From positions 186,001-250,000 of the forward strand of contig NZ_PDWQ01000005.1 in the NCBI RefSeq assembly GCF_010211745.1: DNA of 64,000 bases. Direction: 5' to 3'. The stretch's first letter is position 1; the number at the start of each line of letters is the position of its first letter. Shown piece by piece: positions 50,624-56,181 of this stretch. The notes under the pieces are model-generated. The model was not told where the DNA came from. It searched no databases and worked only from the letters and a program-made list of their open reading frames with translations. The stretch is from Pseudoxanthomonas kalamensis DSM 18571 (GTDB lineage: Bacteria; Pseudomonadota; Gammaproteobacteria; Xanthomonadales; Xanthomonadaceae). Position numbers and translations under genes: made by a program.

Positions 50624-51781
50624 TCAGCCGCGCTGGTCGATCGGCACGAACGCCTGGTCCTCGGGTCCGGTGTAGTTGGCGGACGGACGGATGATCTTGC
50701 CGTCGATGCGCTGTTCGATCACGTGCGCGCTCCAGCCGGAAGTGCGCGAGATGACGAACAGCGGGGTGAACATGTCGGTCGGCACGCCCATCATGTGGTA
50801 GCTGACCGCGCTGAACCAGTCCAGGTTCGGGAACATCTTCTTGATGTCCCACATCACCGACTCCAGACGCTCGGCGATATCGAACATGCGGGTGCTGCCC
50901 GCTTCTTCCGACAGTTCCTTCGCCACCTGCTTGATGACCTTGTTGCGTGGATCGCCGACGGTGTACACCGGATGGCCGAAGCCGATCACCACTTCCTTGC
51001 GCTCGACGCGCGCCTTGATGTCGGCCTCCGCCTCGTCCGGGCTGTCGTAGCGCTTCTGCACTTCGAACGCCACTTCGTTGGCGCCGCCGTGCTTGGGCCC
51101 GCGCAGCGCGCCGATGCCGCCGGCGATCGCGCTGTACATGTCCGAGCCGGTGCCGGCGATGACGCGACAGGTGAAGGTGGACGCGTTGAATTCATGTTCC
51201 GCGTACAGGATCAGGCTGGTGTGCATGGCGCGCACCCAGCTTTCCGGCGGCGTGGTGCCGTGCAGCAGGTGCAGGAAATGGCCGCCGATGCTGTCGTCGT
51301 CGGTTTCCACTTCGATCCGCTTGCCGTTGTAGGCGTAGTGGTACCAGTACAGCAGCATCGAACCCAGCGACGCCATCAGCTTGTCGGCGATGTCGCGCGC
51401 GCCCGGATGATTGTGGTCGTCCTTCTCCGGCTTGACGCAGCCCAGCACCGAGACGCCGGTGCGCATCACGTCCATCGGATGACTCGACGGCGGCAGCTGC
51501 TCCAGCGCGGTCTTGACCGCTGCCGGCAACCCGCGCAGCGACTTCAGCTTGGCCTTGTACGCGGCCAGCTCGGCGCGGGTCGGCAGCTTGCCGTGCACCA
51601 GCAAGTGGGCGATTTCCTCGAACTCGCTGGTGGTGGCCAGGTCGAGGATGTCGTAACCGCGGTAGGCCAGGTCGTTGCCGGTACGGCCGACGGTGCACAG
51701 CGCGGTGTTGCCGGCGGCGGTGCCGGACAGGGCGACCGACTTCTTCGGCTTGAACGCCGTGGCAGGGGTGGCTTCGCTCAT
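50624..51781 (-). CDS. prpC: 2-methylcitrate synthase
   Basis: Citrate-synthase-family enzyme of 385 aa that condenses propionyl-CoA with oxaloacetate. Active-site residues: His196 ([10 protein letters not shown]), His231 (GPKHGGAN) and Asp321 ([10 protein letters not shown]); [14 protein letters not shown] and RPSANYTG bind the substrate. RGYDI and [13 protein letters not shown] style are typical of PrpC rather than GltA. It follows prpB by 206 bp on the same strand, with a strong hairpin between. The usual acnD/prpF or prpD gene is not downstream. Confidence 0.95.
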
Positions 51782-51987: not shown

Positions 51988-52872
51988 TCATGGCTTGCCC
52001 GCGAACAGCGCATCGAGCTTCTGCTCGAAGGCGTGGTAGCCGATGCGGTCGTACAGTTCGTCGCGCGTCTGCATCATGTCGACGACGTTCTTCTGATGAC
52101 CGTCGCGGCGGATCGCTTCGTACACGGTCTCGGCGGCCTTGTTCATTGCCCGGAACGCCGACAGCGGATACAGCTGGATCGCCACCCCGGCCGAGGCCAG
52201 TTCCTCGCGGGTGAACAGCGGCGTCTTGCCGAACTCGGTGATGTTGGCCAGCACCGGCACCTTCACCGCCTCGACGAACCGACGGTAGGTGTCGAGGTCG
52301 TAGGCAGCCTCGGCGAAGATGCCGTCGGCGCCGGCCTCGACACAGGCGATGGCGCGTTCGATTGCTGCGTCCACGCCGTCGACCTGGATCGCGTCGGTGC
52401 GCGCGATCAGGAAGAAGTCCGGGTCGGTCTTCGCATCGGCGGCTGCCTTCACCCGGTCGGCCATTTCGCCCTGCGAGACGATTTCCTTGCCGGGACGGTG
52501 GCCGCAACGCTTGGCGCCGACCTGATCCTCGATGTGGCAGGCGGCCGCGCCGGCCTTGATCAGCGACTTGACCGTGCGCTCGATGTTGAACGCGCTGGGG
52601 CCGAAGCCGGTGTCGATGTCCACCAGTAGCGGCAGGTCGCAGACATCGGTGATGCGGCGCACATCGACCAGCACGTCGTCCAGGGTGTTGATACCCAGAT
52701 CCGGCAGGCCGAGCGACCCGGCGGCAACACCGCCGCCGGACAGGTAGATGGCGCGGTAGCCGGCGCGCTTGGCCAGCAGGGCGTGATTGGCGTTGATCGC
52801 GCCGATGACCTGCAGCGGGGATTCTTCGCTGAGGGCGACGCGGAATCGCGCGCCCGGGGTGGGACTGCCCAT
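51988..52872 (-). CDS. prpB: 2-methylisocitrate lyase
   Basis: Isocitrate-lyase-superfamily enzyme of 294 aa that splits 2-methylisocitrate into pyruvate and succinate. The KKCGH-type signature is KRCGH (121-125) with catalytic Cys123, and DIDTGFG (85-91) holds metal-binding Asp residues. [14 protein letters not shown] is the conserved substrate loop. The ATG at 52872 is preceded by AAGGAG; a longer frame covers the divergent promoter region. First gene of the prpB-prpC transcript, divergent from the HTH-citrate synthase gene. Confidence 0.95.
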
Positions 52873-53000
52873 TTGCCTTGACTCCTTGATGCGGGAATGC
52901 GGCCTGCGTGACCGCAACGATAGAGGTAAGCGGAGCGACGGGCCGACCGCATTGCCCTGCCCTCCACAAGACGGTGCACAATCTGGCACCATCCGATGCA

Positions 53001-53020
53001 TTGATCAATCTTGATGGATT
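53001..53020. promoter_or_regulatory. TTGATCAA palindrome in prpB / HTH-CS divergent region
   Basis: A perfect 8-bp palindrome (53001-53008) overlapping AATC-ttgatg-GATT (53007-53020), within the 161-bp gap between prpB and the fusion gene. It is a candidate operator for the fusion protein itself. Confidence 0.4.
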
Positions 53021-53033
53021 CAGTCAACCTGTC

Positions 53034-54266
53034 GTGAACGATCCCGACTTCATCCCCGCAGCCGAAGCCTGCGAAATCCTCGGCATCAGCGCCGCCACCC
53101 TGTACGCCTATGTCAGCCGCGGATTGCTGGAATCGCGCCCCGGCCGGGACCACCGCAGCCGCGCCTACCGGCGCCTGGACGTGGAACGGCTGGCGCAGCG
53201 CAAGCGGATCGGACGCGGCGCCGCGCGTGGTGCGGCGCAAAGCCTGGACCGCGGATTGCCGGTGCTGGAAACGCGGATTTCGCTGATCCAGCCGGACGGC
53301 CCCTACTACCGCGGCCGCGCCGCCGTGGCCCTGGTCCGCGAAGGTTCGTCGCTGGAGGACACCGCGCGCCTGCTGTGGGACTGCGGCGACAGCAACCCCT
53401 TCGCCGAACCGCTGCCGGCGCACTGGCCGCAACGGGTCGCCGCCATTGCCACCGATGCCGGCCTGCCGCCGCTGGAGCGCGCCATGTCGGCCATTCCGCT
53501 GCTGGGGCTGGAGGTGCGGCATTCGTTCACTTCCTCGCAACCGGTGCGCCAGCAGATCGCCGCCCGCCTGTTGCGCCACAACGCCGCCCTGCTGGTCGCC
53601 ACCCAGCCCTCGAAACAACCCGTGCACCGTTTGCTCGCCCGCCAGTGGCGCGAGGGCGATGCGCGCTTCGCCGAACTGGTCCGCGCCGCGCTGGTGCTGT
53701 GCGCCGACCATGAGCTGAACGTGTCGGCCTTCGCCGCGCGTGTGGTCGCCTCCACCGGCGCCCACCTGCATGCCACCGTCTGCAGCGGCCTGGCCGCGTT
53801 GTCCGGGCCGCGTCACGGCGCCACCACCGCGCGCGCCCATCACCTGATCCGGGCCGCGACCGAAAGCGGCGACCCGCACGACTACATTGCCCAGCGCTGG
53901 CGACACGGCGACGACCTGCCGGGTTTCCGTCACGCGCTGTATCCGGACGGCGACCCGCGTGCGGCCGAACTGCTTGCGATGCTGCGCGATGCCGGGCCGG
54001 ATGCGGCACGGCTGGCGGACGTCGAGGCGGTGGTCGCCAGCGCCGAGGACGCCAGCGGGCAGCGGCCGAACATCGACTTCATGCTGGCGGCGATCTGCCA
54101 TGCCTACGCCCTTCCGGCGCCGCCGGCGCTGGTGATGTTCGCTGCCGGCCGGCTGGCCGGCTGGCTGGCGCATGCGCTGGAACAGCAGGCGCTGGGACGG
54201 CTGATCCGCCCGCGCGCCAGCTATACCGGCGTGCGTCCGGGCGAAGCGGTGCCGGCGCCGGAATGA
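53034..54266 (+). CDS. HTH-methylcitrate/citrate synthase fusion protein
   Basis: Protein of 410 aa with a DNA-binding head and a citrate-synthase body. Residues 7-35 form a MerR/excisionase-like helix-turn-helix (IPAAEACEILGISAATLYAYVSRG). Residues about 75-400 are a citrate-synthase fold that keeps the active site: His226 (CADHELNVSAF), His261 (LSGPRHGATT), Asp348 (PNIDFMLA), His300 with DPR (FRHALYPDGDPRA) and RPRASYTG at 392-399. It is divergent from prpBC and convergent with prpE. A regulator sensing 2-methylcitrate or propionyl-CoA is the likeliest role (inference); catalysis is also possible. GTG at 53034 is preferred, though TTG 53001 and GTG 52908 are in frame. Confidence 0.85.
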   Translation: MNDPDFIPAAEACEILGISAATLYAYVSRGLLESRPGRDHRSRAYRRLDVERLAQRKRIGRGAARGAAQSLDRGLPVLETRISLIQPDGPYYRGRAAVALVREGSSLEDTARLLWDCGDSNPFAEPLPAHWPQRVAAIATDAGLPPLERAMSAIPLLGLEVRHSFTSSQPVRQQIAARLLRHNAALLVATQPSKQPVHRLLARQWREGDARFAELVRAALVLCADHELNVSAFAARVVASTGAHLHATVCSGLAALSGPRHGATTARAHHLIRAATESGDPHDYIAQRWRHGDDLPGFRHALYPDGDPRAAELLAMLRDAGPDAARLADVEAVVASAEDASGQRPNIDFMLAAICHAYALPAPPALVMFAAGRLAGWLAHALEQQALGRLIRPRASYTGVRPGEAVPAPE

Positions 54267-54282: not shown

Positions 54283-56181
54283 TCAGCCGCCAACGTCGGG
54301 GCCGCGCGCCAGCGCCTGCTTCACTTCCTCCAGCGCGCCCGGATCGTCCAGCGTCGACAGGTCACCAGGATCGGCACCCTGCGCCAGCGCCTGCAGCGAG
54401 CGTCGCAGCAGCTTGCCCGAGCGCGTCTTCGGCAATGCGTTGACGATGTAGACACGGGCCGGCCGCGCCACCGCGCCGAGATTGTGTTCGACTGTCTGGC
54501 GCATGCCCTTGGCCGCCTCGGCACGCGCGGCATCGTCACCGGTCTGGCGCAGGGTGGCGAATACCACCGGCACCTGCCCTTTCAGTTCGTCGCTGACGCC
54601 GATCACCGCTGCCTCGGCGACCGCGCCGTAGCTGGACACCGATTCCTCGATCTCGCGCGTGCCCAGGCGATGGCCAGCAACGTTGATGACATCGTCGGAA
54701 CGGCCGAGGATGAAGGTGTAGCCGTCCTCGTCGCGGATCGCCCAGTCCAGCGAACTGTACAGCGGCTGCTTGAAATGGCCGAAATAGCCGGCGAGGAAGC
54801 GTTCGTCGTTGCCCCAGATCGTGCTCAGGCAACCCGGCGGCAATGGTGGCTCGATCACCAGCACACCCTTCTCGTGGGCGGCCGCGTCCTCGCCGGTGGT
54901 TTCGTCGATCACCCGCAGGCGGTAGCCGGGCGTCGGCAGGCCGGGCGAGCCCAGCTTGGTCGGTTTCATCTCCACGCCCGGCATCAACGACAGCACCGGC
55001 CAGCCGGTTTCGGTCTGCCAGTAGTTGTCGATGACCGGCTTGCCCAGCGCGTCCTGGATCCATTGCGCAGTCGGCTCGTCCAGCGGCTCGCCGGCCAGGA
55101 ACAGGTATTGCAGCGCCGACAGGTCGTGGCGGCGGATGTAGTCGGCGTCGAACTTCTTCAGCGCCCGCACCGCGGTCGGCGAGGAGAACATCGTGCGTAC
55201 CCCGTAGCGCGCGCAGATGTCCCACCACACGCCCGGATCTGGCACGGTCGGCAGGCCTTCGTACAGGATCGTCGTCGCCCCGGCCAGCAGCGGCCCGTAG
55301 ACGTTGTAGGAATGCCCGACCACCCAGCCCACGTCCGAGGTGGAGAACATCACCTGCCCGGGGCCGACGTCGTAGATCATCTTCATCGACAGCATCAGCG
55401 CCACCGCATAGCCGCCAACGTCGCGCTGCACACCCTTCGGCTTGCCGGTGGTGCCCGAGGTGTACAGGATGTAGCCCGGCTCGTTGGATTCCAGCCACTG
55501 CACCGGCACGTCGGCGTTCGCGTGCGCCGTGCTGGCCGTGGCGTAATCGACATCGCGGCCCGGCGTCATCGGCGACTGCGGATCCAGCCCGCGATTGATG
55601 ACCAGCACGTGCGGCGGCGGCGCCGAGGACAGTTCCAGCGCCTCGTCGACCAGCGGCTTGTACGGGATGACCTTGCCACCACGGCTGCCGGCATCGGCGC
55701 AGATCAGCAGCTTCGGCTGCGCATCGTCGATCCGCAGTGCCAGGTTGTGCGAGGCGAAGCCGCCGAACACCACCGAGTGGATCGCGCCGATGCGCGCGCA
55801 GGCCAGCATCGCCACCGCCGCTTCCACCGTGTGCGGCAGGTAGATCACCACCCGGTCGCCCTTGCCCACGTCCAGCGACTGCAGCACCGCGGCGAAGGTG
55901 TTCACCTCGCGGTACAGGTCGCGATACGTCAGTTCGCGGGTCTGCCCGGTTTCGGTGGAGACGCCGATGATGGCCAGTTGGTCGCCGCGCGCGGCCAGGT
56001 GGCGGTCGACCGCGTTGTGGCACAGATTGGTCTCGCCACCGACGAACCAGCGCCGGAACGGCGGGCGCGAGTAGTCCAGGATCTGCTTCGGCGGCGTGCG
56101 CCAGTGGATCGCCCGCGCCTGCTCGGCCCAGAAGGCCTCCGGCTGCTCGATCGAATGGCGGTAGATCGCTTCGTAGCCCAT
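54283..56181 (-). CDS. prpE: propionate--CoA ligase
   Basis: AMP-forming acyl-CoA synthetase of 632 aa of the acetyl/propionyl-CoA synthetase group. The adenylate motif is ILYTSGTTGKPKGVQRD, and the C-terminal PKTRSGKLLRRSLQAL has the catalytic Lys. The assignment as PrpE rather than Acs rests on the N-terminus (EAFWAEQARAIHW) and the adjacent prpBC and regulator genes. It supplies propionyl-CoA for PrpC. Start at 56181; the longer frame extends into the intergenic region. Confidence 0.92.
   Translation of the reverse strand: MGYEAIYRHSIEQPEAFWAEQARAIHWRTPPKQILDYSRPPFRRWFVGGETNLCHNAVDRHLAARGDQLAIIGVSTETGQTRELTYRDLYREVNTFAAVLQSLDVGKGDRVVIYLPHTVEAAVAMLACARIGAIHSVVFGGFASHNLALRIDDAQPKLLICADAGSRGGKVIPYKPLVDEALELSSAPPPHVLVINRGLDPQSPMTPGRDVDYATASTAHANADVPVQWLESNEPGYILYTSGTTGKPKGVQRDVGGYAVALMLSMKMIYDVGPGQVMFSTSDVGWVVGHSYNVYGPLLAGATTILYEGLPTVPDPGVWWDICARYGVRTMFSSPTAVRALKKFDADYIRRHDLSALQYLFLAGEPLDEPTAQWIQDALGKPVIDNYWQTETGWPVLSLMPGVEMKPTKLGSPGLPTPGYRLRVIDETTGEDAAAHEKGVLVIEPPLPPGCLSTIWGNDERFLAGYFGHFKQPLYSSLDWAIRDEDGYTFILGRSDDVINVAGHRLGTREIEESVSSYGAVAEAAVIGVSDELKGQVPVVFATLRQTGDDAARAEAAKGMRQTVEHNLGAVARPARVYIVNALPKTRSGKLLRRSLQALAQGADPGDLSTLDDPGALEEVKQALARGPDVGG

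Follow-up and report, generated by a model that had tools for sequence, protein, structure and literature searches.

An HTH-citrate synthase fusion protein as a putative one-component regulator of methylcitrate cycle genes

Can the fold of a citrate synthase serve as the sensor of a transcription regulator? This question is raised by a gene of Pseudoxanthomonas kalamensis DSM 18571 that encodes an N-terminal helix-turn-helix (HTH) joined to a citrate synthase (CS) domain and that lies beside the propionate genes prpB, prpC, and prpE, within a stretch of 64,000 nucleotides that we analyzed (hereafter the window). Sigma54-type PrpR is a regulator of prp genes. A sequence-only reading of the window had proposed that the fusion protein, here called HTH-CS, is a one-protein sensor controlling prpBC, with the fold of the pathway enzyme as its ligand-binding domain. 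A one-protein prpBC regulator with a CS-fold effector is strongly supported by our comparison of gene order, a putative operator, a second site at acnD, matched presence across genomes, and a contrast between recognition-helix classes. From these comparisons, we consider it highly probable that HTH-CS is a one-component transcription regulator of prpB/prpC and acnD that uses the CS fold for dimerization and ligand sensing.

Results

Domains and active site of HTH-CS

The open reading frame and its Pfam matches bear out the fusion of an HTH to a complete CS domain (Table 1). HTH_17 was the best HTH model (E 9e-8, 32.7 bits against a cut-off of 27), MerR_1 also passed (24.3 bits against 21.6), MerR (PF00376) stayed under its cut-off (23 bits against 28.2), and Citrate_synt matched at E 1.2e-62 (212.5 bits against 27). 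HTH and CS models were the only Pfam models matched, with no PrpR_N domain. The Pfam run used a longer reading of 452 amino acids from 52908. That longer frame is unlikely to be the gene, judging from start and stop positions in 80 relatives: an ATG or GTG lies ∼3 to 27 nt upstream of the matched stretch in most of them, in-frame stops occur 12 to 60 nt upstream in many, and the GTG at 53034 could well be the start codon.

Table 1. Features of the HTH-CS locus in window coordinates
Feature	Position	Strand	Basis
HTH-CS gene, putative one-component regulator of methylcitrate genes, 410 aa	53034..54266	+	ORF, Pfam, gene order in relatives
HTH_17/MerR-like DNA-binding domain, ∼residues 6-58	53049..53207	+	HTH_17 and MerR_1 pass Pfam cut-offs
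Recognition-helix segment TLYAYVSRG, residues 22-30	53097..53123	+	Comparison with distant members
Citrate-synthase-fold effector domain (putative)	53250..54215	+	Pfam Citrate_synt; Foldseek to CitA and PrpC structures
His226 and Asn229 codons, active site	53709..53720	+	Alignment
His261 codon, active site	53814..53816	+	Alignment
His300 codon, active site	53931..53933	+	Alignment
Arg309 codon	53958..53960	+	Alignment
Asp348 codon, active site	54075..54077	+	Alignment
Arg373 codon	54150..54152	+	Alignment
Arg392 codon	54207..54209	+	Alignment
prpB, methylisocitrate lyase, putative target	51988..52872	-	NF008455, 530.7 bits
prpC, 2-methylcitrate synthase, putative target	50624..51781	-	NF009006, 724.7 bits
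prpE, propionate-CoA ligase, tail-to-tail with HTH-CS	54283..56181	-	TIGR02316, 1128.5 bits
Putative operator TTGATCAATCTTGAT-N7-RTCAA, one mismatch (GTCAA for ATCAA, last half-site)	53001..53027	+	Pattern search, intergenic comparison
Predicted prpB -35 element TTGATC, inside operator	53003..53008	-	17-bp spacing to -10
Predicted extended -10 of prpB, TGC-CAGATT	52980..52988	-	Conserved spacing; consensus

Retention of the main active-site residues, as first read from the sequence, was confirmed: His226, Asn229, His261, His300, Arg309, Asp348, Arg373, and Arg392 are all present and match the neighboring PrpC. We take the roles of these eight residues from known citrate synthases, and Arg309 is presumably, by homology, the arginine for the substrate carboxylate. 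An alignment of the window protein with 29 of the 80 relatives showed no change at any of the eight positions (30 of 30 sequences). The domain had also been described as methylcitrate synthase-like, which holds for the CS fold, but the domain is not a close copy of such an enzyme. HTH-CS reached the curated cut-off of none of the 21 NCBIfam models that it matched (best, 158 against 332 for NF009005; 133 against 421 for TIGR01800; 112 against 550 for NF009006), it shares 31% identity with the neighboring PrpC over the C-terminal half, and its best PDB matches by both sequence and fold are mycobacterial CitA. Foldseek placed the HTH-CS model on CitA and PrpC structures with TM-scores of 0.54 to 0.68 among the 50 matches listed; the HTH alone had no PDB match at E up to 0.1. 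The structure model (mean pLDDT, 79.8) contains helices and two short strands that resemble a winged HTH at moderate confidence. We make no claim based on domain arrangement, because pLDDT is low in the domain linker (63-91, below 50) and in the HTH blocks (59 to 79).

The view that the CS domain derives from the pathway's own PrpC found no support in the tree. In a quickly built tree of 57 rows, made without the HTH columns and without mycobacterial CitA proteins and carrying a long-branch warning, a branch with SH-aLRT 100 separated 37 of 37 HTH-CS rows from the PrpC and CitA-type rows, and the HTH-CS, PrpC, and CitA-type rows formed separate branches (SH-aLRT 100, 99, and 97, respectively). 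On the strength of this separate branch and of the NCBIfam scores below cut-off, we rejected the reading of HTH-CS as a recent copy of PrpC.

A near-invariant motif between prpB and HTH-CS

NCBIfam equivalog matches identify prpB, prpC, and prpE and confirm that HTH-CS lies head-to-head with prpB and tail-to-tail with prpE. Is this arrangement conserved? When one genome per species was scanned, 229 encoded a relative, and we examined the best 80 of these, mostly from Lysobacteraceae genera such as Pseudoxanthomonas, Luteimonas, Lysobacter, and Stenotrophomonas. prpB was divergent from and adjacent to HTH-CS in all 80, with an intergenic gap of ∼0.09 to 0.19 kb, and acnD lay downstream of prpC in at least 39 of these 80 loci.

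Between the two genes lies a near-invariant putative operator, CAATMTTGAT-N7-ATCAAY. Across 81 intergenic regions (the window and the 80 relatives), the consensus was TTGATCAATCTTGAT-N7-ATCAA, with little else conserved except an adjacent CAATCTGGCACC-like block, and the 10-mer GATCAATCTT was present in 80 of the 81. On the prpB strand, the spacing between TTGATC and a TGN-CANATT-like element was exactly 17 bp in every locus that could be scored (80 of 80), when the best of spacers 14 to 20 was taken; L027 was the one unmatched locus of the 81. Read against what we take to be the sigma70 consensus, these elements predict a sigma70-like prpB promoter with an extended -10. An inverted repeat, TTGAT-N7-ATCAA, lies just upstream of the predicted -35, centered at ∼-46, and a further half-site overlaps the -35. 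A sigma54 reading of TGGCACC-N, judged against our assumed sigma54 consensus, was rejected: by eye, the -12 GC is not conserved, and it is the 17-bp sigma70-like spacing that is. On the opposite strand, the distance from the end of the operator to the HTH-CS start ranges from a few to a few tens of bases, which suggests autoregulation. In one genome, the gap between prpB and HTH-CS contains two operators, separated by 218 bp (L249:3828 and 4046, plus strand).

A second site in front of the unlinked acnD

Genome-wide, the long pattern TTGATNAATCTTGAT-N7-ATCAA occurred twice at up to 3 mismatches in the 3.03-Mb genome to which the window belongs, and the reversed control gave no site. One site is the prpB/HTH-CS promoter. 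The other lies on another contig in front of acnD, which encodes the Fe/S-dependent dehydratase of the methylcitrate cycle (TIGR02333, 1759 bits); it has 0 mismatches, stands ∼0.1 kb from the likeliest acnD start, and carries the same flanking promoter block. In this genome acnD (L156:4395-7112, minus strand) is unlinked from prpBC and divergent from the sigma-32 gene rpoH (L156:7316-8215, plus strand). With a shorter, looser pattern at up to 3 mismatches, the acnD site again had 0 mismatches and the prpB site 1; twelve more sites appeared at 2 to 3 mismatches, all distant from prpE, and the reversed control again gave none. Neither genome-wide pattern search found an operator in front of prpE at up to 3 mismatches.

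Does the acnD site recur? At up to 1 mismatch, the shorter pattern was present in 34 of 38 genomes of the genus and absent from 4. Nine genus genomes had more than one operator site, and in all nine a second composite site lay directly upstream of acnD. Third sites in L250 and L251 (1 mismatch) lacked the composite and had no prpB, prpC, prpE, acnD, or HTH-CS match; we take them as chance. The predicted 17-bp promoter spacing was found at 10 of 10 scored acnD copies, including that of L143, where HTH-CS itself is divergent from acnD-prpF. The candidate place of acnD in the HTH-CS regulon had been missed by the sequence-only reading, as had the sigma54 PrpR genes found beside prpB elsewhere in the family.

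Matched presence of operator and HTH-CS in the family

Among 119 genomes of the family, 25 carried the operator at up to 2 mismatches, and the identical 25 encoded HTH-CS (E up to 1e-60); the operator occurred in none of the 94 genomes without HTH-CS, and the reversed control was 0 throughout. Part of this co-occurrence is linkage, as the two occupy adjacent positions, and the unlinked tests are acnD and the loci L125, L259, and L260 described below. prpC was over its cut-off in 117 of the 119 genomes. Nearly all of the 94 genomes without HTH-CS thus have prpC, which argues that the operator is not a general feature of prpB promoters.

Sigma54 PrpR, recognized by its PrpR_N domain, was found in 12 of the 119 genomes and in none of the 25 with HTH-CS, nor in the window genome. 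This mutual exclusion is suggestive only (Fisher P = 0.07). Of the 10 PrpR loci read, 8 (L182 to L187, L189, and L190, from family members without HTH-CS) had prpB beside the sigma54 PrpR gene within the 3.5 kb covered, which indicates that two unrelated regulators use the same place. As 82 of the 119 genomes have neither HTH-CS nor PrpR_N, the idea that one or the other is needed wherever prpC occurs was ruled out.

HTH-CS beyond the propionate genes

How far does the architecture extend? A 30-row profile searched at E up to 1e-40 matched in 14 of 151 genomes of the order and in at least 47 of 398 genomes of the phylum, where at most 4 candidates per genome were scored and members may be missed. 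The match started within the first seven profile positions, with the HTH included, in 13 of 14 order matches and 46 of 48 phylum matches. From these we compared 32 further loci, five on the prp branch (L143 to L146 and L151) and 27 outside it. In the five prp-branch loci, HTH-CS is faced by prpB in four and by acnD in one. Elsewhere the partners differ. A CitA-type citrate synthase gene lies head-to-head with HTH-CS in 16 of the 32 loci (15 tree rows and L142; four were checked against NCBIfam), a class III CoA-transferase gene faces it in four, and single loci show a 2-hydroxyacid dehydrogenase (L134, with L138 alike by eye) or a methyltransferase (L140). In L141, whose close sister in the tree is L147, the first divergent gene encodes a MipA-like protein and the next a CitMHS citrate transporter. 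In L142 (7968-9202, minus strand), HTH-CS is split into two open reading frames, as if frameshifted, and the operator is intact.

Despite these different neighbors, 28 of the 32 further loci had the operator immediately upstream of HTH-CS with at most 1 mismatch; outside the prp branch, the count was 23 of 27. The core TTGAT-N7-ATCAA alone likewise gave 28 of 32 at up to 1 mismatch. None of 444 control upstreams, taken from other open reading frames of at least 300 codons in the same loci, had the operator at up to 2 mismatches; the pattern letters M and Y were widened after some of the further loci had been seen, and the controls used the longer pattern alone. The expectation that the architecture always stands beside prpB/prpC therefore held for the 80 close relatives examined and failed for 27 of the 32 further loci, which lie away from propionate genes. 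Their placement is not random: with the same operator upstream in 23 of these 27, and with CitA-type synthase, CoA-transferase, 2-hydroxyacid dehydrogenase, methyltransferase, or transport genes as the neighbors identified, the architecture looks like a general and widespread family of one-component regulators with a putative CS-fold sensor, of which the prp regulator would be one branch.

In L125, the operator is missing from the HTH-CS promoter, and two copies stand nearly 3 kb away, at a divergent promoter flanked by a 2-hydroxyacid dehydrogenase gene and a short-chain dehydrogenase gene. The plasmid relatives L259 and L260 show the same arrangement, there with a D-glycerate dehydrogenase gene, and again have two copies each and none at their own promoter. 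In L134 and L263, kin of these three, such a dehydrogenase gene is faced directly, with the operator between. Where the putative target lies elsewhere, as in L125, L259, and L260, the operator thus sits with the target. Outside Pseudomonadota, HTH-CS was seen on a Deinococcus plasmid (L252), where it faces a pyruvate carboxyltransferase gene, and on an Embleya plasmid (L253).

Recognition helix, operator, and catalytic residues

If the HTH reads the operator, do helix and operator change together? We compared 46 members outside the close set (the 32 loci and 14 plasmid loci), five of them on the prp branch. The TLYAYVSRG helix class, small variants included, occurred in 41 of the 46; the variant TVYAYVSRK of L138 keeps the operator. 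Among these 41, which include the five prp-branch members, 38 had the operator somewhere in the locus at up to 2 mismatches, compared to 0 of the 5 members with other helices (GRK in L141, L147, and L257; TYVSRG in L255 and L258); the rows are related by descent, and the contrast is not to be read as a probability. The three common-helix members without an operator at up to 2 mismatches were L130, L252, and L253, of which, by eye, L252 has a version one base shorter and L253 a partial one. Inspection by eye also showed another palindrome, AGATCGAT-N6-ATCGATCT, upstream of HTH-CS in both L255 and L258, and AAATCTGTAC there in L141, L147, and L257 in place of the common operator.

All five GRK- or TYVSRG-helix members have lost both His261 and Asp348. 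L255 and L258 face operons for ring-hydroxylating (Rieske) dioxygenases, and L257 faces a porin and an MFS transporter. In some branches, then, a regulation-like divergent layout survives the loss of catalytic residues. All eight active-site residues were kept in 29 of 45 aligned members outside the close set, and the other 16 include seven in which only Asn229 is replaced, by Thr. Taken together, sequence comparison shows the architecture, the putative operator, the predicted promoter spacing, the candidate regulon members, the joint change of helix and operator, and the loss of catalytic residues.

Discussion

A candidate mechanism and its alternatives

How might HTH-CS act? The N-terminal HTH would bind the near-invariant motif in the shared prpB/HTH-CS promoter and before the unlinked acnD. 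Citrate synthases are dimers, and the CS-fold domain may provide both dimerization and ligand sensing; we infer direct binding, the ligand, and the dimer. A dimer would sit on the inverted repeat, and a ligand in the CS pocket would alter its grip on the DNA or its contact with RNA polymerase. With its active site intact, the protein should be able to bind a substrate or product of the methylcitrate synthase reaction. Propionyl-CoA, oxaloacetate, and 2-methylcitrate are the candidates for the prp branch, and the evidence favors none of them. As to the sign of control, we lean slightly toward a ligand-dependent activator of prpB and acnD that would also repress its own gene; the lean comes from the inverted repeat at ∼-46, the half-site overlapping the -35, and the poor -10.

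The same protein could instead be a plain repressor of prpB and acnD that its ligand releases, and we place this close behind, at rather less than an even chance. The predicted prpB and acnD -35 (TTGATC) lies inside the operator, where bound protein could block RNA polymerase, but the operator is mostly upstream of the -35, with the center of the inverted repeat at ∼-46, and CAGATT fits the sigma70 -10 consensus poorly, as at activator-dependent promoters. Repression does have a parallel at this gene: in the relevant part of a report on Xanthomonas citri (PMC12153269), PrpR represses prpB, and the authors compare it with Salmonella PrpR. Could HTH-CS instead be a trigger enzyme that still makes (methyl)citrate and reports its own catalysis, or that forms mixed dimers with the neighboring synthase? 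The eight residues look like those of an active enzyme in all 30 aligned prp-branch sequences and persist in the 29 of 45 members outside the close set, and a CitA-type synthase gene lies head-to-head in half of the 32 further loci. A sensor that only binds would keep the same pocket, however; no synthase model cut-off is reached; and members without His261 and Asp348, as well as others with Asn229 or His300 replaced, still hold divergent, regulator-like positions. We regard the trigger enzyme as improbable on balance.

Still simpler readings fare worse. An ordinary citrate synthase with an incidental HTH, some other factor using the operator, would agree with the citrate synthase annotation in the annotated plasmid records listed and with the intact active site; it is very hard to reconcile with an operator that none of the 94 family genomes lacking HTH-CS carries, although nearly all of them have prpC, that accompanies HTH-CS across classes despite different neighbors, and that changes together with the recognition-helix class. 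That the motif is merely a conserved core promoter, as the -35 inside it might suggest, is scarcely credible: conservation reaches ∼20 bp past the -35 as an inverted repeat, and the motif recurs before distant HTH-CS genes with unrelated neighbors while being absent from the 444 other upstreams at up to 2 mismatches. Returning to HTH-CS as a regulator, we offer one broader scenario, tentatively and with more doubt than belief. A complete citrate synthase may have been turned into a sensor in a widespread family; its prp branch may be a trigger enzyme that carries out or initiates the pathway reaction and in this way senses propionyl-CoA and oxaloacetate jointly; and in sister branches the active site would have decayed while the DNA-binding part was re-aimed at new operators and targets, such as citrate transport and Rieske dioxygenases.

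Relation to known regulators

MerR family operators lie between the -35 and -10, with a spacer of 19 to 20 bp. HTH-CS differs in that the predicted spacer is 17 bp and the operator overlaps and extends upstream of the predicted -35. Suvorova, Ravcheev, and Gelfand are said to have treated prp regulation in proteobacteria in 2012; their work may cover Xanthomonadales and is the main threat to the novelty of these findings. An HTH-citrate synthase regulator was not described among the matches listed from open-licence PMC papers, and the relevant passages of PMC7324645 and PMC12542777 describe none. The HTH-CS family with its putative enzyme-fold sensor appears undescribed in the open-licence literature searched.

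GabR is a precedent for a regulator built from an HTH and an enzyme fold, according to the relevant passages of PMC6917764. The MocR/GabR proteins presented there resemble the proposed HTH-CS regulator in having an N-terminal HTH, a metabolic-enzyme fold as ligand-binding domain, and control over the pathway of the ligand. They combine a GntR winged HTH with an aminotransferase fold, whereas HTH-CS combines an HTH_17/MerR-like domain with a citrate synthase; neither a GntR HTH nor an aminotransferase domain was found in HTH-CS by Pfam at E up to 0.001, and we claim no shared descent. Mycobacterium tuberculosis PrpR, in the portion of PMC6765138 that describes it, activates methylcitrate genes, binds CoA or short acyl-CoA, and contains a [4Fe4S] cluster; it controls methylcitrate genes, as proposed for HTH-CS, and differs from HTH-CS in structure. 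The X. citri PrpR motif given in the part of PMC12153269 that concerns it, GTTGCAA-N2-TTGCAAC, differs from the HTH-CS operator, although sigma54 PrpR shares the place beside prpB. Structures of mycobacterial CitA (PDB 6wgy and 8s9d) and of PrpC share the CS fold with HTH-CS, with no HTH reported in the aligned range.

With HTH-CS in at least 47 of 398 sampled genomes of the phylum, many proteins labeled citrate synthase may be regulators. For Lysobacteraceae without PrpR, HTH-CS is a candidate propionate regulator. With a defined operator, with regulons already inferred, and with recognition helices, operators, and active sites that vary in nature, the family opens both its DNA specificity and the transition from enzyme to sensor to direct tests. 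In the annotated plasmid records, HTH-CS is labeled citrate synthase or citrate synthase family protein. One example with the latter label is ATU_RS25370 of Agrobacterium fabrum plasmid pAt, which has the HTH-CS architecture and the operator at 0 mismatches; unlike in the window, a citrate synthase/methylcitrate synthase gene takes the divergent position in place of prpB.
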